A stretch of 64,000 bases of DNA, taken from contig JAJDUJ010000030.1 in assembly GCA_022826705.1 (NCBI GenBank), positions 62,001 to 126,000 of the forward strand. Direction: 5' to 3'. The notes beneath the pieces were generated by a model that did not search any database, was not told where the DNA came from, and saw nothing but the letters and a program-made list of their open reading frames with translations. The stretch comes from Acidimicrobiia bacterium (GTDB taxonomy: Bacteria; Actinomycetota; Acidimicrobiia; Acidimicrobiales; Bin134). The first letter of the stretch is position 1. Every line of letters begins with the position of its first letter. Position numbers and translations under genes: made by a program. Positions 8,254-64,000 of the stretch are shown in pieces.

Positions 8254-10980
8254 ATGGGTCGGCCGCGCACTGCGGACGGACTAAGAAAGAGCTTTTTGCC
8301 AGCAAAAATTCGGGTCTACGAGCTTGCCCGCGAGCTCGGCCTCACGAACAAGGAAACGCTTGACCTCTGCGTCACGCTGGGGATCGGCGTCAACAGCCAC
8401 TCCTCAAGCATCGTGGATGCCCAAGCGGACCGCGTCCGCCGGCGAGCGCATCGTGATGGCCTGGTTCGGCCCCCTGAGCCCGAACCTGAGCCGGAGCCAG
8501 AACCCGAGCCTGAACCTGAGCCCGAGCCCGCACCAGAACCCGAGCCTGAACCTGAATCTGTCGAGCCTGAGCCGGCCGCGGCCGAAGTAGAGCCGGAGCC
8601 TGTCGAGCCCGAGCCCGAGCCGCCCAAGCCGACGCGGGTGGTTACCTCAAGTGGGGGAGTGCCTCCCCGCTCCCGTCCAGCAGAACCGTCGATTGAGCCT
8701 CCTCCCGATGCTCCGCCGGCACCGCCGCGATCGGTGCCGAGGCCGGCGGCCGAACCGCCAGCTGCTCAGCCAGCCGCCTCTGCTCGGACCAGCCCCCCGC
8801 TCTCGCGTTCGGGCAAGCCGATTCCGCCGCCCCCTGGTCGCCCGCCGACGTCTTCTTCGGGCAAGCCGATTCCGCCGCCCCCCGGCCGGGGTGGGCGGGG
8901 TCCGGCACCGAGCCCCCGAAGAGGTCCTCGAGGCCCAATGCGACCCTCAGTTGGCACCCAGGGGCCAGGGGCCGGTTCACCAGGACGGTCTCCTGCGCCT
9001 CTAGCTGCCCGCGGTCCCGCTGGTGCGCTCGGTGCGCCCCCCAGTGGAACGGGAGCTCCAGGCGGCCGAGGTCGAGGCGGCCCCCAGCGTCCTCAACAGA
9101 GGCGGCGCAAGAGTCGGCGGCGTCGGCGGGTGGCTGAAGACCTCCAGCCCATGAACATCCCCGACTACACCCCAACGGACGCGGCTGCGCCCACTGGGGT
9201 GGTGGTAGTCGAGCGAGCCTCGACGCCGTTGGAGGTGGGTCCGAAGCTGAACCAGACGGCCGCCGATGTGGTGCGCTTTTTGATGCAGCAGGGTGAGATG
9301 GTTACCGCCACCCAGTCTCTGACCGACGACATGATCGAGCTGTTTGCTGCAGAGATCGGTGCCGAAGTCCGGCTGGTGGATCCCGGTGAAGAGCAGGAGA
9401 ACGAACTGCTCAAGCTGCTCGAAGCCGACTTCGAAGAGGAAGAGCCCGAAGATGGCAACCCGGTCCGGCCTCCGGTTATCACCGTTATGGGCCATGTGGA
9501 CCACGGTAAGACCAAGCTGCTCGACCAGATTCGCAGCGCCAACGTGGCCGAGGGCGAGGCCGGTGGCATCACCCAGCACATCGGTGCCTATCAGGTGGAA
9601 AAAGACGGGCGAACGCTGACTTTCATTGACACTCCCGGCCACGCGGCATTCACGGCAATGCGGGCCCGGGGCGCCGATGCCACCGACATCGTGGTGCTGG
9701 TGGTGGCGGCCGACGATGGCGTGATGCCCCAGACCCTGGAGGCCATCAACCACGCTCGGGCCGCCGATGTGCCCATTGTGGTTGCTGTGAACAAGATCGA
9801 CCGCAACAATGCCGACCCCAATCGGACCATGCAGCAGCTTTCCGAGCATGAATTGGTGCCCGAGCAGTGGGGAGGCGAAACCATCGTGGTTGAGGTCTCC
9901 GCCCTTCAGAACCTGGGGATCGACGACTTGCTCGAACAACTGGCCGTGGTGGCCGAGGTGGAGGATCTGCGGGCCAACTCAGACGGTCGGGCTCGCGGCG
10001 TGGTGCTGGAGTCCAACTTGGATATCGGGCGTGGCCCGGTGGCCACTCTGTTGGTTCAGAACGGAACTTTGAGGCGAGGGGACCCAGTAGTTGCCGGAGC
10101 TTCCTGGGGACGGGCCCGGGCCCTGCTCGACGACCGCGGCAACCAGATTCAAGAGGCGCTGCCATCGAAGCCGGTGCAGGTGCTCGGACTCTCCGACGTG
10201 GCCAACGCCGGCGACTCCTTCGTGGTGGCCCCCAACGAGAAGGTGGCGGCCAAGGTCGCCCAGACACGCGAGCACTCTCAGCGCATTGCCAGCTTGGGCC
10301 GGGATGCCGCAGCCACTTCGGGCGGAGCGCGCCTAGAAGACATCTTCAGCCAGATCCAGGCTGGGGAGACTGCGACGCTGAACCTCATCGTCAAAGCCGA
10401 TGTGAACGGATCGCTGGAAGCAGTGGTGGACAGTCTCCAACGCCTAGGCCGCGACGAGGTGAAACTGGCTTTTGTCCATCGGGGTGTGGGTGGAGTAACC
10501 GCCAACGACATCCAACTGGCGGCCGCGTCCAACGCCACCATCATCGGCTTCAACGTCAGACCCGATCGCAAGGCGAGGGAGCTGGCCGAGCTCGAGAAGG
10601 TGGAGATCCGCACCTACGAGATCATCTACAACCTGATCGAGGATGTGGAGAACGCCATGGTGGGAATGCTGGCGCCGGAGTTCGAAGAGGTCGTCACCGG
10701 CGATGCCGAAGTACGGGAAGTGTTCCGGATTCCCCGGGTGGGCGCGGTGGCCGGCTGCTACGTGCTCAACGGGGCCATCACTCGAGGCTCCAAAGTCCGG
10801 TTCCTGCGAGACGGTGCGGTCATCTGGCGGGGCACAGTGTCCTCTCTCAAGCGCTTCAAAGATGATGTGCGCGAAGTGCAGTCGGGATACGAGTGCGGTA
10901 TCGGCCTGTCCGACTTCCAAGACCTCAAGCAGGGTGACGTCATCGAGACGTTCGAGGAGCGAGAAGTCGCCCGAGTCTGA
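8254..10980 (+). CDS. infB: Translation initiation factor IF-2
   Basis: This GTPase delivers initiator tRNA to the 30S subunit. An N-terminal IF2-N motif ([13 protein letters not shown]) is followed by a roughly 270-residue disordered linker. The linker starts with an alternating Pro-Glu tract and becomes Pro/Gly/Arg-rich with two [11 protein letters not shown] repeats. The GTPase domain has G1 GHVDHGKT (about 413), G3 DTPGHAAF and G4 NKID (about 513), and the beta-barrel and C1/C2 domains follow. Annotated from ATG 8254; an in-frame TTG at 8296, with AAGAAAGAG just upstream and directly before the conserved motif, may be the true start. At 908 residues the length is normal for actinobacteria. 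Confidence 0.96.
8473..8622 (+). repeat. Pro-Glu coding low-complexity tract in infB
   Basis: About 150 bp of degenerate six-base units alternate proline and glutamate codons with varying synonymous codons. The codon variation argues that the repeat is kept for its protein product, an extended acidic linker, rather than being a recent slippage expansion. Confidence 0.85.
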
Positions 10981-10982
10981 CG

Positions 10983-11276
10983 ATGCATGTGCTTGCCGTG
11001 GTCTACGACTTGCACATACCGGGCTGTCGTTCGCTGAAAGAGCGGCGATCAGTGCTGCGCCCTGTCCTGTCGGGCGTAACCCGAAAATTCGGCGTCTCGG
11101 TGGCAGAAACCGGCCATACCGACCTCTGGCAGCGGGCTGAGGTGGGCGTGGCGGTGGTATCGGGGCAACCCAGCCAATGCCGAACGCTCGCCGATGAGTT
11201 GGATCGCTATATGTGGTCGATTCCCGATATCGAAGTAGTGAGCTCCTCCTCCCACTGGCTGAACACAGACGAATAG
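10983..11276 (+). CDS. DUF503 family protein (YlxP-like)
   Basis: This small conserved protein of 97 residues has the DUF503 pattern: an N-terminal LAVVYDLHIPGCRSLKERR, a central SVAETGHTDLWQRAEVGVAVV and a C-terminal SSSHW. Family members are encoded between infB and rbfA in many bacteria, as here, and a link with ribosome or translation function is usually assumed; the molecular role is not established. It starts 2 bp after infB stops and ends 2 bp before the rbfA start, consistent with one transcript. Confidence 0.85.
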   Translation: MHVLAVVYDLHIPGCRSLKERRSVLRPVLSGVTRKFGVSVAETGHTDLWQRAEVGVAVVSGQPSQCRTLADELDRYMWSIPDIEVVSSSSHWLNTDE

Positions 11277-11278
11277 CC

Positions 11279-11653
11279 GTGGCTCGCAATCGGCCATCGC
11301 GCCCCTCCCGCTACTCACGGTCAGCCCGGCTCGGCGAGCTGCTGCGAGAGATCGTGGCTTCTGAACTGGCCCGCTTGGACGACGACCGCTTGGAGCTGGC
11401 CAGCATCACCGGGGTGGAAACCAGCGTCGAGTTGAGCCGGGCAACCGTGTTCATCAGCGCTCTGGACGAAGAGGCGGCCTCTGCCGCCCTCGAGGCCCTA
11501 GAGGAGCACCGTCTCCAACTCAAACAGGCGGTGGCCCGCTCAGCAGCGATGCGGAGAGTTCCCGACCTGGCTTTCGCCCTTGATCCGTCGATCTCGGCCG
11601 GCGAGCGAGTCGACCGAATTCTCCGCGATCTGGCTGATGAGGACGAAAGGTGA
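11279..11653 (+). CDS. rbfA: Ribosome-binding factor A
   Basis: It binds the 30S precursor and helps 16S rRNA 5'-end maturation. The KH-like fold is recognisable from RSARLGELLREIVASELARL, then SITGVETSVELSRATVFIS and the C-terminal RRVPDLAFALDPSI with ERVDRILRDL. The GTG at 11279, two bases after the DUF503 stop, gives a 124-residue protein of normal length; the frame is open further upstream but that part overlaps DUF503. The stop codon forms a GTGA overlap with a vestigial truB start (see the repeat at 11650). Confidence 0.9.
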   Translation: MARNRPSRPSRYSRSARLGELLREIVASELARLDDDRLELASITGVETSVELSRATVFISALDEEAASAALEALEEHRLQLKQAVARSAAMRRVPDLAFALDPSISAGERVDRILRDLADEDER

Positions 11654-11731
11654 GCGCTTCCGACGGACTGGCGGTCTTCGACAAATGAGTGGGAGTGCCG
11701 TCGACGGATTGGCGGTCATCGACAAAGAGGC
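11650..11731 (+). repeat. 41-bp tandem duplication of the truB 5' end
   Basis: Bases 11650-11690 and 11691-11731 form a direct tandem repeat. In the best conserved part, 11662-11685 against 11703-11726, 22 of 24 bases match. The first copy begins with a GTG overlapping the rbfA stop and encodes MSASDGLAVFDK then a stop. The second encodes the same SxxDGLAVIDK start in the functional truB frame. The first copy looks like the ancestral, translationally coupled truB start, now reduced to a 12-codon leader. Confidence 0.85.
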
Positions 11732-12557
11732 TGGGTGGACGTCCCACGACGTGGTGGCCAAGGCCCGGGGTGTCTTCAGCACCCGCAAAGTGGGGCACGC
11801 GGGCACCCTGGACCCCGATGCCACCGGGGTGCTGCTGTTGGGAGTGGGCCGTGCCACCAGGCTGTTGCGGTTTCTCACCCCGCTGCCCAAACAGTATGTG
11901 GGCGAATTGGTGCTTGGTGCCGAGACCACCACGCTGGACGCCGCCGGTGAGGTCACCGCGGTCCACGACATGACTGGTGTGACCCCGGAGCAGGTGGCCC
12001 AAGCCGCATCAGGCTTCGTCGGCGACATATTGCAGATTCCACCAATGGTCTCCGCGGTGAGAGTCGGGGGCCGTCGGCTGCACGAGTTGGCCCGCGAAGG
12101 AGTCGAAGTCGAGCGGGAAGCCCGGCCGGTGACCGTCCATGAACTGACGGTTGCCCCGTTGGATGCTGACACCGGGGTTTATCGGATGGAGGTCACCTGC
12201 TCCTCGGGAACGTATATCCGCTCGTTGGCCGCCGACATCGGCACTGCTTTGGGGGGCGGCGGACATCTTCGGGCGTTGCGGCGAATAGCCATCGGCTCGT
12301 TCGCAGTCGACGATGCCCGGCCGGTGGACGCGCCGGTGCTCTTGACCATGGCGGAGGCCTTGCGGGACTACCCCGCGGTGTCGATCGACGAGGCTTTGGG
12401 CCAGAGAGTGGGGAGCGGACAGGTGTTGGCAGCCGATGAGCTGTCGGCGGAGGGAGAAGGTCCGTGGGCTGTGCTCGGACCACGAGGCCACCTCCTGGCC
12501 GTGTACGAGGCCCATCTCCCTGGCTTGGTCAAACCGGCAGTGGTAATCCCCCAGTGA
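11685..12557 (+). CDS. truB: tRNA pseudouridine-55 synthase TruB
   Basis: It isomerises U55 to pseudouridine in the T-loop of tRNAs. The catalytic motif GHAGTLDPDATGVL, with the nucleophilic Asp, lies about 36-49 residues in. KQYVGELVLG and the conserved RSLAADIG and HLRALRR elements follow, then a C-terminal domain of roughly 60 residues. ATG 11685 overlaps the stop of the vestigial 12-codon leader peptide as ATGA, so reinitiation after the leader could supply ribosomes. The product of 290 residues is of normal length. It lies between rbfA and ribF, a common arrangement. Confidence 0.93.
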   Translation: MSGSAVDGLAVIDKEAGWTSHDVVAKARGVFSTRKVGHAGTLDPDATGVLLLGVGRATRLLRFLTPLPKQYVGELVLGAETTTLDAAGEVTAVHDMTGVTPEQVAQAASGFVGDILQIPPMVSAVRVGGRRLHELAREGVEVEREARPVTVHELTVAPLDADTGVYRMEVTCSSGTYIRSLAADIGTALGGGGHLRALRRIAIGSFAVDDARPVDAPVLLTMAEALRDYPAVSIDEALGQRVGSGQVLAADELSAEGEGPWAVLGPRGHLLAVYEAHLPGLVKPAVVIPQ

Positions 12558-12628
12558 GAGCCGTGAGCTCGTCGTTGGCGTGACCGGGATTGTCCACTCT
12601 GAGGCTTCGCCCGCTACCGTGCAGAGCG

Positions 12629-13582
12629 GTGCAGGTCATCGAGGACTTTGGCCGCTTCGAAGGCATTGAGGAAACCGCGGCCAGTATCGGGGTGTACGAC
12701 GGTGTCCATGTCGGACATCAGGCGGTGATCAATCAGCTTCTCTCCGAAGCGAATCGACTGGGTGTGGCCCCCGCAGTGGTCACGTTCGACCGCCATCCAG
12801 CGCTGGTGTTGCGGCCGGAGAACGCCCCCAAGCTCCTGAATTCCCTCGATCAAAAGCTGGAGCTGCTTGATGCGGCCGGCATCGAATACGTGTACCTGAT
12901 TGAGTTCTCTCCCGACCGAGCCCACACGATGCCGGAAGACTTTGTGCGCGAGGTGTTTGTGAAGAGGCTTCAGGTTCGGAGCGTGGTGGTGGGCGAAGAC
13001 TTCCACTTCGGCCGGGCGCGTCTGGGAAACATCGACACATTGCGGAAATTCGGCATGGAGATGGGCTTCGAGGTTCACGCAGTGAAGCTCCTTCATCATG
13101 ATGACAAATGGCCCGAGCCGGTGTCCTCAACTGCCGTGCGCCGGGCGCTGGCTGGCGGGGATGTCCGCACGGCGGCGGCGATGCTGGGGCGGTACCACGA
13201 GATCAGGGGCAAGGTGGTGCTGGGGGATCGGCGGGGGATGACCATCGGATTTCCCACCGCCAACATCCCGGTGTCCATGGCCATGGCCTGGCCCGCCGAC
13301 GCGGTCTACGCCGGCTGGTACACCCGCCCCGACGGGTCCCGGTACATGGCGGCCATAAACATCGGCCGGCGGCCCACGTTCTACGAGCACGCCCAGCAAT
13401 CGCTGTTGGAGGCGCATCTCCTGGATTTCGAGGGAGACCTCTACGGCGAGGAGGCCAGAGTCGAGTTTGTGGAGTTGCTGAGAAGCGAGCACCGTTTTGA
13501 CGGCATCGAACCCCTGGTGAAACAGCTCCGCATCGACGTCGCCCTTTCCCGGGAAATCTTGATGGCGGAACCTTCCCGCTGA
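12629..13582 (+). CDS. ribF: Bifunctional riboflavin kinase / FAD synthetase
   Basis: It phosphorylates riboflavin to FMN and adenylylates FMN to FAD. The N-terminal FAD synthetase domain carries IGVYDGVHVGHQAVI (GxxxGxxxGH-type nucleotidyltransferase motif) and, later, SSTAVRRALAGGDV. The C-terminal riboflavin kinase domain begins near IRGKVVLGDRRGMTIGFPTANI and contains the AINIGRRPTF motif. GTG 12629 is preferred because the conserved fold starts right after it and TACCGT, a possible leaderless -10, ends nine bases upstream; a TTG at 12590 is the longer alternative. FAD and FMN would serve the flavin oxidoreductase encoded next. Confidence 0.92.
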   Translation: MQVIEDFGRFEGIEETAASIGVYDGVHVGHQAVINQLLSEANRLGVAPAVVTFDRHPALVLRPENAPKLLNSLDQKLELLDAAGIEYVYLIEFSPDRAHTMPEDFVREVFVKRLQVRSVVVGEDFHFGRARLGNIDTLRKFGMEMGFEVHAVKLLHHDDKWPEPVSSTAVRRALAGGDVRTAAAMLGRYHEIRGKVVLGDRRGMTIGFPTANIPVSMAMAWPADAVYAGWYTRPDGSRYMAAINIGRRPTFYEHAQQSLLEAHLLDFEGDLYGEEARVEFVELLRSEHRFDGIEPLVKQLRIDVALSREILMAEPSR

Positions 13583-61060: not shown

Positions 61061-61134
61061 GCGTCGGTGCCCGAGCGGACTAAGGGAGTGGCCTGCAAAG
61101 CCATGATTCACGGGTTCAAATCCCGTCCGGCGCT
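61061..61134 (+). tRNA. tRNA-Cys (GCA)
   Basis: Acceptor gcgtcgg pairs with ccggcgc (one G-U). The D-stem is ccc/ggg, the anticodon stem gtggc/gccat surrounds ctGCAaa, and the T-arm is acggg-ttcaaat-cccgt. No CCA is encoded. The gene borders a change in base composition: everything to its right in the window looks unlike the left side. Confidence 0.95.
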
Positions 61135-61265
61135 CTAGGGGGGTTATAGCCAGTTAGCTGGAATCGGTTGCCCGGCTAGACCTGACTGGGGGTCTTTGGG
61201 CGGTTGCGCAGGACTTTGGGGGTGGTTTGTGAGGTTGCTTTCGGCAAACTGCCTCGTGGTCAAAG

Positions 61266-62636
61266 TCAACCCGGGAAAGATTCTTGTCTGACGCTGAGAG
61301 CTCCAACCGGTTCATTCTGGCCGCTTGTGCTGCTCGTCCTCATATCTGTCTTGTTGTGGCGCTCCAGTGACGGGGCGCGCGGGACGAATGCCTGAAGGTC
61401 TTGGAACACGTTGGCGTAGAACTCGACTACAGCGTCAACGACTGAGTCGATGAAACCCTTCTTGCGAGTGGAGCGGCGGCCTGTGCCCATTTTTGTTTGC
61501 TGGCGGACGAGGAACTTGTTAGGTGGTTGCTTCGACTCGGGCAGGCCGTTCTTGGGGTCTTCTCGCAATAGCTCCAGGGACGAGGTGACGGGGATGCGCC
61601 CAGATTTCTGGAAGACGTCAACAAGGACGGTGCCAGGCGCGTCCTTCATTTGTTTGACTAGCCAGACTACGGCAGCCCTCGGTGTCCGGTCGTCGGGGGC
61701 CGCTAGCTGGGTGCTAACCGTGATTTTGCGGGCCTTGAGGTCGACCGAAACAGACAGGTCGGCGGCTCCATCTGGGACACGCAGAACACCGGACAGTGAG
61801 CCCTCTGAGCACAGCGAAGCTACGAATTCCCTATTGCGTGCCTGTGGGTTCTGGCGGTGGGCCCGTGGGATGACCTCGGTGACGTCGGCGCCGATCTCAG
61901 CTCCCAACTTCAATGTGGCGAATCTCAGCAGCTGGTCCCAGCGTTGGCAGATCTCGGCGGCTTCGGGGCTTCGGCGCGACAGGCTGCCGTCGGTCGCTGC
62001 TTCGAGGACGGCATTCCAGTTATCGCCCATGTCCGAAAAGTCCACCACCCCTGATTTCTCATGGGTCAGATAGCGAATGAGCTCATCGACGATCCAAGCC
62101 TGTTCGGGGTCGTCAACCCCGCGGTGCGAGTGCTCTTTGACGGCCTCAGCCAAAATCAGCGACCACGACAGATGATGGACTTGAGTCCTTGAATTGGACC
62201 TCACCCTCAGCCCGTCTGTGGGGTGTACCCCAGGAGATGGCGCGATCTCATTCGATATGGTGATGACGCAGTCAATGCCCTCTCCTCGGGCTACTTCCAG
62301 GTATTCGTTCAACTGGTCTGCGCTGAGCTTATTCATCCCAGTCTTAACCTCTACAAGGGCCTCAAACCCGGTTCTTTGGCCTACCACCACCCGGATGAGC
62401 CCGTCAGGAATGACGAGGCGACCGTCGCCTGTCCGGTAGCCGGGCTTGACGAACGTGGAAATCTTCGCCTTCTTCGCAGACGTGCACCCCAGGGGGACCA
62501 GCAGCGCTCGGCTGAGTGACGGGACCACGCTCATCACTGACAACAACGCGGAAGTCGCACGGTCTTCCGCCTCTTTGGCACCCTTGATCCCAGCAACTGG
62601 GATCAATCGCGCCCGTTCGAATTCGGCTTCAGCCAT
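61266..62636 (-). CDS. PD-(D/E)XK-like nuclease domain protein in a putative island
   Basis: The family is not recognised, but a nuclease core is readable. Asp78 is in LVIPDGLIRV, Glu96-Val-Lys98 in ALVEVKTG, and Gln108 with Tyr112 in ADQLNEYLEVA, the spacing of the PD-(D/E)XK fold with the RecB-type Q-motif. VITISNEI follows. The middle is helical (DDPEQAWIVDELIRYL), and the C-terminal 150 residues contain strands and a basic linker. ATG 62636 follows AGGTGGG; an upstream frame extension is discounted. It is the last gene of a leftward cassette next to tRNA-Cys. No partner methylase or helicase is visible before the window ends. The 131 bp between tRNA-Cys and its stop hold nothing recognisable. 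Confidence 0.7.
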   Translation of the reverse strand: MAEAEFERARLIPVAGIKGAKEAEDRATSALLSVMSVVPSLSRALLVPLGCTSAKKAKISTFVKPGYRTGDGRLVIPDGLIRVVVGQRTGFEALVEVKTGMNKLSADQLNEYLEVARGEGIDCVITISNEIAPSPGVHPTDGLRVRSNSRTQVHHLSWSLILAEAVKEHSHRGVDDPEQAWIVDELIRYLTHEKSGVVDFSDMGDNWNAVLEAATDGSLSRRSPEAAEICQRWDQLLRFATLKLGAEIGADVTEVIPRAHRQNPQARNREFVASLCSEGSLSGVLRVPDGAADLSVSVDLKARKITVSTQLAAPDDRTPRAAVVWLVKQMKDAPGTVLVDVFQKSGRIPVTSSLELLREDPKNGLPESKQPPNKFLVRQQTKMGTGRRSTRKKGFIDSVVDAVVEFYANVFQDLQAFVPRAPSLERHNKTDMRTSSTSGQNEPVGALSVRQESFPG

Positions 62637-62643
62637 AGCCCAC

Positions 62644-62826
62644 CTAGCTTTCGATCCAGCCTGCGCTTTGGCGCAAACCCCGGCCACGATACACATCTAA
62701 CACTGACTGCAGTCCAAACAGCCCTGAACTGCCGGGTCGTAGTCCTGTCCAAACAGCAGTCTGGATGCTGTAGTCGTCAAGACGGACTAGTTGGTTCAGC
62801 GCGGGATGGTTGGCGAACGACGGCAT
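62644..62826 (-). CDS. Possible small protein between ASCH and nuclease genes
   Basis: A 60-codon frame with no recognised family and no clear Shine-Dalgarno. In its favour, its stop lies eight bases before the nuclease ATG and forms part of that gene's ribosome-binding region. The frame also continues upstream to the end of the ASCH gene, which would leave no non-coding gap in the cassette. It could also be a decayed remnant or chance frame. Confidence 0.3.
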   Translation of the reverse strand: MPSFANHPALNQLVRLDDYSIQTAVWTGLRPGSSGLFGLQSVLDVYRGRGLRQSAGWIES

Positions 62827-62858
62827 CCATTCAATGACGATCCGTAGCTCACCGTCAG

Positions 62859-63311
62859 CTAGGCGGCCATCTGCAAGAGTCGGTCGCCGGTCTTGGTGTC
62901 GACGTAGGCGAAGCTCTGGGGTGGACGGAAGCGGCTTGGCTTCGTCCGCATGTCTTGAAGAGGCACCATCCTGCTGAAGGGACGCTGATGGGCCAGCTCA
63001 AGTGCTGTGCCCACTTCCACACCTTCGAAGTAGCGCTTGAATTCGTGGTAGGACAGATCGGCTCTGGATCCGAACTCGTGCCACAAGGCTTTGAGGTTGG
63101 CCGAGGTGACACTGGTGATGATGCATGTGCCGAGCAATGCTCGTACCGGTGTCGTTGCATACAACAGCGCCCGTGTCGGAACCTGGATCTTGGGTGTAGT
63201 CCGACGCAGCTCGACAGTCTTTGTGCCGGTAAGGATGGCTTCTGCGAATCTTGGCTTGAGAGACAGGACAATCATCCGGTCTTGATCTAGTTCTGCTATT
63301 TCCTCAGTCAT
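62859..63311 (-). CDS. ASCH domain protein
   Basis: ASCH domains are PUA-related and are thought to bind RNA or modified nucleic acid; some have amidohydrolase or RNase activity. The 150-residue protein is essentially one domain: VLSLKPRFAEAILTGTKTVELRR holds the defining G-x-K-x-x-E-x-R motif, followed by ALLYATTPVRALLGTCII and a C-terminal PPQSFAYVD strand. The ATG follows AGGGGTGAG and overlaps the upstream gene's stop by 8 bp, so the two proteins are made together. Codon use is less GC-rich than in the core genes. Confidence 0.8.
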   Translation of the reverse strand: MTEEIAELDQDRMIVLSLKPRFAEAILTGTKTVELRRTTPKIQVPTRALLYATTPVRALLGTCIITSVTSANLKALWHEFGSRADLSYHEFKRYFEGVEVGTALELAHQRPFSRMVPLQDMRTKPSRFRPPQSFAYVDTKTGDRLLQMAA

Positions 63312-64000
63312 CTCGTCTCACCCCTTCCTCGTAGAATGCCTGGACACTAGCTTCATCGATTTGCCGGGTCGTTATGAAGTAACCGTCTGTGTTCATGGCG
63401 GGGCACAACTCTCGTGCCCTGTCCATCGCGATTGGCTCGTGGAAGATCTCCGTCTGGCTGAACAGCAACGCTGTCGCTGCGGGGTGGCCGCCATTTCCGG
63501 AAGGCTTGGCGCTGTCTAGAACCTGACTCTCGTCGAGCACCCCGCGATCGCGATACTTGCGGTAGAGGCGACGGGGATCGCCGGTGTCGAAGGCGTCCAG
63601 CCACGAAATAGCTCTCACGCCCCCGAATGCCCCTCCCCCTGAAACCCACCAGATGATCCTTGCGGGAGCCTCTAGGGATTGACGAGGCGTCATGTAGTAG
63701 GTGTTTTCGCGGGCAGCGGCCGCTCGAAGATGTATCTCGAACAGCCGCGCCTGGGGTTCCTCATATCCGAGGAGGACGCGGGCGTACTCCGGCTTGATCG
63801 GGACAAGATAGGAAGTGACGGCTCCGCTGAAAACCTTCGAGGGCCATGCGTATCGCTCATATTCTCGGATCAGGTTCGCATTCAGTCTGTCCCAACCGAT
63901 TTGGCTCAACTCCTGGGGAAGCGCATCACCAGGTCCGAACATGCCGGTCTGAACAAACGCTTTCCAGGTTGCCCCCTCGGACCTGAACCCTTCGTCGCGG
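63304..64000 (-). CDS. PUA/EVE-like domain protein, N-terminus outside window
   Basis: The frame is open to the right edge, so the true start lies beyond 64000; the ATG at 63942 is probably internal. The visible 232 residues include ARIIWWVSGGGAFGGVRAIS and LYRKYRDRGVLDESQV, then ALLFSQTEIFHEPIAMDRARE and YFITTRQIDEASVQAFYEEG. The order of strand, glycine turn and helix resembles the ASCH/PUA-like modules often fused to acetyltransferase-type domains. Whether an N-terminal GNAT domain is present cannot be seen. It is the upstream partner of the ASCH gene. Confidence 0.6.
   Translation of the reverse strand, partial: RDEGFRSEGATWKAFVQTGMFGPGDALPQELSQIGWDRLNANLIREYERYAWPSKVFSGAVTSYLVPIKPEYARVLLGYEEPQARLFEIHLRAAAARENTYYMTPRQSLEAPARIIWWVSGGGAFGGVRAISWLDAFDTGDPRRLYRKYRDRGVLDESQVLDSAKPSGNGGHPAATALLFSQTEIFHEPIAMDRARELCPAMNTDGYFITTRQIDEASVQAFYEEGVRRDD

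Follow-up and report, generated by a model that had tools for sequence, protein, structure and literature searches.

The window analysed here is a stretch of 64,000 nucleotides that corresponds to positions 62001-126000 of contig C7 in a 3.45-Mb genome, designated G000. At its right end, beyond a tRNA-Cys(GCA) gene located with ARAGORN (61061..61135, forward strand), lie three leftward frames. These encode a stand-alone PD-(D/E)XK nuclease-fold protein of 456 amino acids (61266..62636), an ASCH protein of 150 amino acids (62859..63311), and the C-terminal 231 residues of a large GNAT-PIN-(GNAT-like)-PUA/EVE-like protein (63304..64000), which runs on outside the window. These genes belong to a genus-wide hotspot of defence genes that lies downstream of tRNA-Cys in Acidimicrobiia-type actinobacteria (Sva0996 group/Poriferisocius relatives), and they are best read as two modules without relation to each other, not as one three-gene system. 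Module 1 pairs the large protein with ASCH, and module 2 is the nuclease. Other G labels denote the relatives that were compared and L labels the sequence loci extracted from them; a position in L004 equals the window position minus 57999.

The hotspot downstream of tRNA-Cys

As stated in a preliminary description of the window, the genes to the right of tRNA-Cys are leftward and less GC-rich, with a GC content of 0.588 against 0.659 ± 0.020 to the left. The value falls under all 234 equal-sized comparison windows, the minimum of which is 0.602. Low GC content continues beyond the window to about position 69100 (~5 kb), where a TrkA-C/Na-H exchanger gene pair with normal GC content starts. The left flank and the tRNA-Cys gene, which forms the left border of the hotspot, were recovered in most of the 22 genomes of the genus. 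Just past the 3' end of the tRNA gene the sequence is different in every genome of the genus (alignment of 18 copies), and the cargo between tRNA-Cys and the exchanger pair is variable. It includes type IIG restriction enzymes in G013 and G016, a kinase/TPR candidate pair (PDC-M71) with a GmrSD-type restriction system (HEC-05) in G021 (L051:6139-9107 and 10541-13153), PDC-S06 in G002 and HipA in G011. The three genes to the right of tRNA-Cys are not vertically inherited at this site in all relatives. The view that an accessory island of a defence- or toxin-like type lies at tRNA-Cys is upheld.

A second, degenerate copy of tRNA-Cys is found outside the window at ~65412-65488 (L004:7413-7489) and is 87% identical to the first, so that the tRNA 3' end recurs as a direct repeat at the distal border of the island. 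Second copies are also present in G006, G013, G016 and G021, those of G016 and G006 being nearly identical to the first, including a leader of ~25 bp; G007 and G015, both single-contig genomes, contain just one. A tyrosine integrase was not detected as a PF00589 match in the hotspot of 13 genomes, serine recombinases not having been searched for. Of the features that the preliminary description proposed to look for to the right, the tRNA-Cys repeat and, in relatives, further defence genes were found, but a tyrosine integrase was not. The cargo may have entered by homologous recombination between the tRNA copies or the flanks. In this marine lineage, of which little is in culture, the site offers a ready source of more defence genes.

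The second tRNA-Cys copies (L048, L049, L050, L051 and L004:7413-7489) lie at the distal end of the island and are often whole with the ~25 bp leader, and the copy in G000 has mismatches in the acceptor stem. MmeI-like type IIG restriction-modification proteins share the hotspot with the module 1 pair at L048:12329-15175 and L049:9165-12017. A DUF6226 protein (L004:9047-9919) is a repeated occupant of the hotspot in the genus, with 46-79% identity.

The large protein and its ASCH partner

The gene for the large protein (PDC-M11A-like, here M11A) starts at ~65298 (ATG) or 65409 (GTG), outside the window, and its full frame, at L004:5305-7410, encodes 701 amino acids. Initiation at residue 38, an ATG, would give 664 amino acids and suits the relatives better. 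An N-terminal GNAT domain at residues 65-162 of the 701-residue frame (PF13673, 5e-10) keeps the acetyl-CoA motif R116-x-x-G-x-A. It is followed at ~198-310 by a PIN domain that matches PDC-M11A at 9.1e-9 and PF13470 weakly (0.048), and in which the acidic residues D201, E240, D288 and D307 are present. The middle region aligns with the canonical GNAT domain, yet it gave no Pfam match in any of the seven scanned proteins of this architecture, in all of which the N-terminal GNAT domain scores well, and the R/Q-x-x-G-x-G/A motif is missing from it in the aligned members. A profile built from the last 200 residues and their relatives matches the structure of the Zymomonas mobilis ASCH ribonuclease (ZmASCH, PDB 5guq/5y6b) at 3.5e-4, and membership of the C-terminal domain in the PUA/ASCH superfamily is supported at the level of profile comparison. 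As this domain has no Pfam EVE match (PF01878), it is termed PUA/EVE-like on account of its profile relation to ASCH and its position. The gene at the edge of the window had been taken for a PUA-like protein; the PUA-superfamily domain is indeed there, but the window holds only a 231-residue fragment of the frame, the parts for the catalytic GNAT and PIN domains being beyond its edge.

The ASCH gene overlaps the upstream large gene by 8 bp. Its identification in the preliminary description is borne out by matches of the product to PDC-M11B (7e-30, PDLC04425), to PF04266 (7.9e-7) and, over nearly the whole length, to ZmASCH (PDB 5guq, 1.2e-23). The GxKxxxxR motif is shared with ZmASCH. Among the ZmASCH cleft residues tested by mutation, Tyr47, Lys53 and Ser128 (PMC5615036), the first and the last are kept as Y51 and S133, whereas Lys53 is replaced by R57. 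Both genes are under purifying selection, the ratio of nonsynonymous to synonymous divergence (dN/dS) being 0.18-0.20 for M11A and 0.14-0.28 for the ASCH gene.

Proteins of the (PIN)-GNAT-EVE type are nearly always encoded together with an ASCH gene, in operons predicted to act in toxin-antitoxin or defence functions, and the PIN-containing form is frequently associated with restriction systems (Bell et al. 2020, PMC7641849). These operons trace to Iyer et al. 2013, as cited by Bell et al. (PMC7641849); in PADLOC they are represented by PDC-M11A/B, and the name PDC-M11 was absent from the literature searched. Module 1 has in common with them the order PIN, GNAT-like and PUA/EVE-like in one protein, an overlapping ASCH gene downstream, and restriction systems nearby in relatives. 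Canonical PIN-GNAT-EVE members of 500 amino acids with ASCH occur in two genomes of the class, and in an hhalign comparison the 701-residue type was co-linear with the canonical proteins over 450 columns, from PIN to the end (probability 98.1%, E 1.1e-13). Unlike them, the type in the window adds ~160-200 N-terminal residues that form a GNAT domain with an intact acetyl-CoA motif, its central GNAT-like domain lacks the motif and a Pfam match, and no AAA_17 ATPase gene was seen at the window locus. As judged by sequence, module 1 is a rare variant of the already predicted (PIN)-GNAT-EVE + ASCH operon type (PDC-M11). Thus, the suggestion that the combination matches no named system does not hold for the ASCH and edge genes. 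The variant, with one GNAT domain that has the acetyl-CoA motif and another that has lost it, makes it possible to ask which GNAT domain matters.

The same architecture with ASCH downstream was found in G279 of the same class, in Kineosporia and in Nostoc. It also occurs in a genome of the same order, with no ASCH gene within the stretch read, and on a Calothrix plasmid, where it is followed by a small gene unnamed in the record. The Calothrix copy adjoins a restriction-modification pair and McrBC-like genes, and the Nostoc copy is likewise plasmid-borne. As a search of 295 other genomes spread over the phylum did not find the architecture, it is rare in the phylum at this sensitivity. Scans of viral contigs with the large protein gave no match, and phage records gave only a short GNAT match. 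The alignment of the large-protein family is too divergent for pattern reading.

Our proposal for the targets, the toxicity, the role of ASCH and a possible phage defence follows the scheme of Bell et al. (PMC7641849), in which readers of modified nucleic acid steer PIN and GNAT effectors. RNA or DNA carrying particular bases would be recognised by ASCH and by the large protein through its PUA/EVE-like end, and the PIN ribonuclease and the N-terminal acetyltransferase would then act on tRNA or other RNA. Growth would stop once the balance is disturbed by a phage or a mobile element, ASCH being the putative partner or antitoxin of the large protein.

The distribution of the two genes bears on another explanation, namely that module 1 simply stabilises the island as an addiction (toxin-antitoxin) cassette, with ASCH as the antitoxin, and does not serve in defence. 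Intact M11A always occurs with ASCH in the genus (4/4), whereas ASCH is intact without M11A in G006 (L050), G011 (L063) and G019 (L064), with the same dN/dS as the paired copies. In G011, M11A is reduced to its last 23 codons, which lie beside ASCH. A lone ASCH gene and such a remnant fit the loss of a toxin with its immunity gene kept, but the ASCH gene carries a frameshift in G021:C64 and is broken in G010, which speaks otherwise. Furthermore, the proximity to restriction systems reported for the PIN-containing form (PMC7641849) recurs in G013 and G016, and simple addiction modules do not usually include a protein of four domains. We regard the addiction cassette as unlikely; the retention of ASCH alone in three relatives nevertheless provides a handle on whether it is an antitoxin.

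Relation of the pair to the nuclease

The preliminary description had coupled the nuclease to the two PUA-like proteins as one system. In such a system, the ASCH and PUA/EVE-like proteins would sense modified nucleic acid, a function proposed for PUA-like modules in the literature, and allow its cleavage by the PD-(D/E)XK nuclease. All three genes are indeed on one strand in G000, and they are adjacent on one strand, in another order, on a distant Kineosporia contig. However, G014 has the nuclease (93% identical) at the same tRNA-Cys without M11A or ASCH, elsewhere the nuclease occurs near tmRNA or tRNA-Ser, and G013, G016 and G021 have the pair without the nuclease. Of the 156 nuclease loci obtained in one scan, 80 were analysed; the pair is nearby in just one of them, that of Kineosporia, and no neighbour of the nuclease is conserved.

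The junction between the modules tells the same way. The genes had been described as tightly overlapping, which applies to the edge and ASCH genes but not to the ASCH and nuclease genes, these being 222 bp apart. A small open reading frame in this region (62644..62826, reverse strand) had also been noted. It has no family match and spans the module junction and the upstream leader of the nuclease gene, a leader common to G014. DNA homology to G014 starts only ~140 bp before the nuclease start, inside the small frame and with an indel, and in this frame the protein identity to G014 is 46% although the DNA matches well there. Owing to this position, the indel and the low protein identity, the small frame is not supported as a gene.

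Divergence histories differ as well. Between G000 and G014, synonymous divergence (dS) is 0.31 in the nuclease gene and 0.50 in the flanking core gene; between G000 and G013, it is 0.37 in M11A and 0.20 in the core gene, the core values coming from one flanking gene only. Because of the distribution in G014 as opposed to G013 and G016, the end of homology inside the small frame and the differing dS values, the right end of the window is assigned two modules, and the single three-gene system is considered very unlikely.

An extended form of the three-component idea holds that the extra N-terminal acetyltransferase has turned the large protein into a dual-enzyme RNA effector, that the old GNAT domain now serves as a reader or in a structural capacity, and that the nuclease supplies a third, DNA-cutting arm of an immunity system. 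The part given to the nuclease derives from the independent arrangement in Kineosporia, which would suggest such an arm. We hold this to be highly improbable.

A defence hotspot with two unrelated modules, a variant PDC-M11 operon acting as proposed above and a solo nuclease, is in our judgement the probable account, held with moderate confidence. Several points weigh against it. No member of the (PIN)-GNAT-EVE + ASCH group had been tested as of Bell et al. 2020 (PMC7641849), and no experiment on any such operon was found in the literature searched, including after 2020. The PIN match is under the Pfam cut-off, an EVE match is missing from the C-terminal domain, and AlphaFold2 modelling of the large protein, with two sequences as input, reached a pLDDT of only 35.6. 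The single core gene behind the dS comparison has been mentioned, and a functional link keeps some plausibility from the Kineosporia locus L126, where M11A and ASCH genes neighbour that of the nuclease. In this locus of Kineosporia sp. R_H_3 (L126:6001-10414), the nuclease, GNAT-PIN-EVE-like and ASCH genes are on one strand in an order that differs from that in the window.

The stand-alone nuclease

For the nuclease, the ATG at 62636 is preferred; a longer frame of 476 amino acids starts at 62696. The catalytic pattern consists of PDG at 77-79 and EVK at 96-98. In an alignment of 43 relatives, D78 is conserved in 42 and both E96 and K98 in all 43, which confirms the PD-(D/E)XK assignment made in the preliminary description. 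The AlphaFold2 model is confident (mean pLDDT 89.8), and its Foldseek matches in the PDB are mostly restriction nucleases, among them EcoT38I (probability 0.98), McrC (0.89) and BamHI (0.87), with E values of at least 3e-3 and low TM-scores. The protein resembles these type II/IV endonucleases in the fold of its N-terminal domain, the D-E-K pattern and a conserved Q downstream, and differs from them in having no sequence match and no methyltransferase partner. For its large C-terminal half, the sole resemblances, both weak, are to 2a8e and a type III secretion chaperone. No convincing family match was obtained, and the family, though spread over Actinomycetota, is unnamed in Pfam, NCBIfam and PADLOC as searched.

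The gene is under purifying selection, with dN/dS of 0.06-0.10. The 80 loci analysed are mostly from Actinomycetota, and in a search spread over the phylum the family was patchy, being present in 15 of 296 genomes. Among 96 nuclease neighbours scanned with PADLOC and Pfam, no defence gene prevailed as a partner, and no nuclease match was found in phage records. Module 2 is a single-gene nuclease that probably works alone, in a restriction-like or a stress role.

The second of these roles, a Ter-type nuclease for DNA damage or metal stress and not for defence, is suggested by TerD proteins of Rhodococcus and Streptomyces plasmids. Their last ~430 residues belong to the same nuclease family (33-38% identity), and they carry an N-terminal TerD domain (PF02342, 2e-43). 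However, TerD is absent from the window protein and from loci whose products fall in the same length class, and both the patchy spread and the location among defence genes would suit an accessory gene that is mobile. A Ter-type role is possible but doubtful. The fusions of TerD and nuclease include L172:3203-5299 and L173:3212-5266 and point to a possible link of Ter stress systems to restriction-like nucleases.

Since close relatives have the nuclease gene in the vicinity of tRNA-Cys, tmRNA and tRNA-Ser, a role as a tRNA-site mobility gene was also considered. It was dropped, as just 6 of the 80 loci have a tRNA or tmRNA gene at a distance of up to 500 bp, a modest excess by rough estimate. 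The copies near tmRNA or tRNA-Ser are in L058, L059 and L060 (G012, G001 and G039, respectively), and that of G001, directly after tmRNA, is truncated at the N-terminus. In the G014 hotspot, a NERD-domain nuclease-related protein (L047:6366-7541) adjoins the nuclease.

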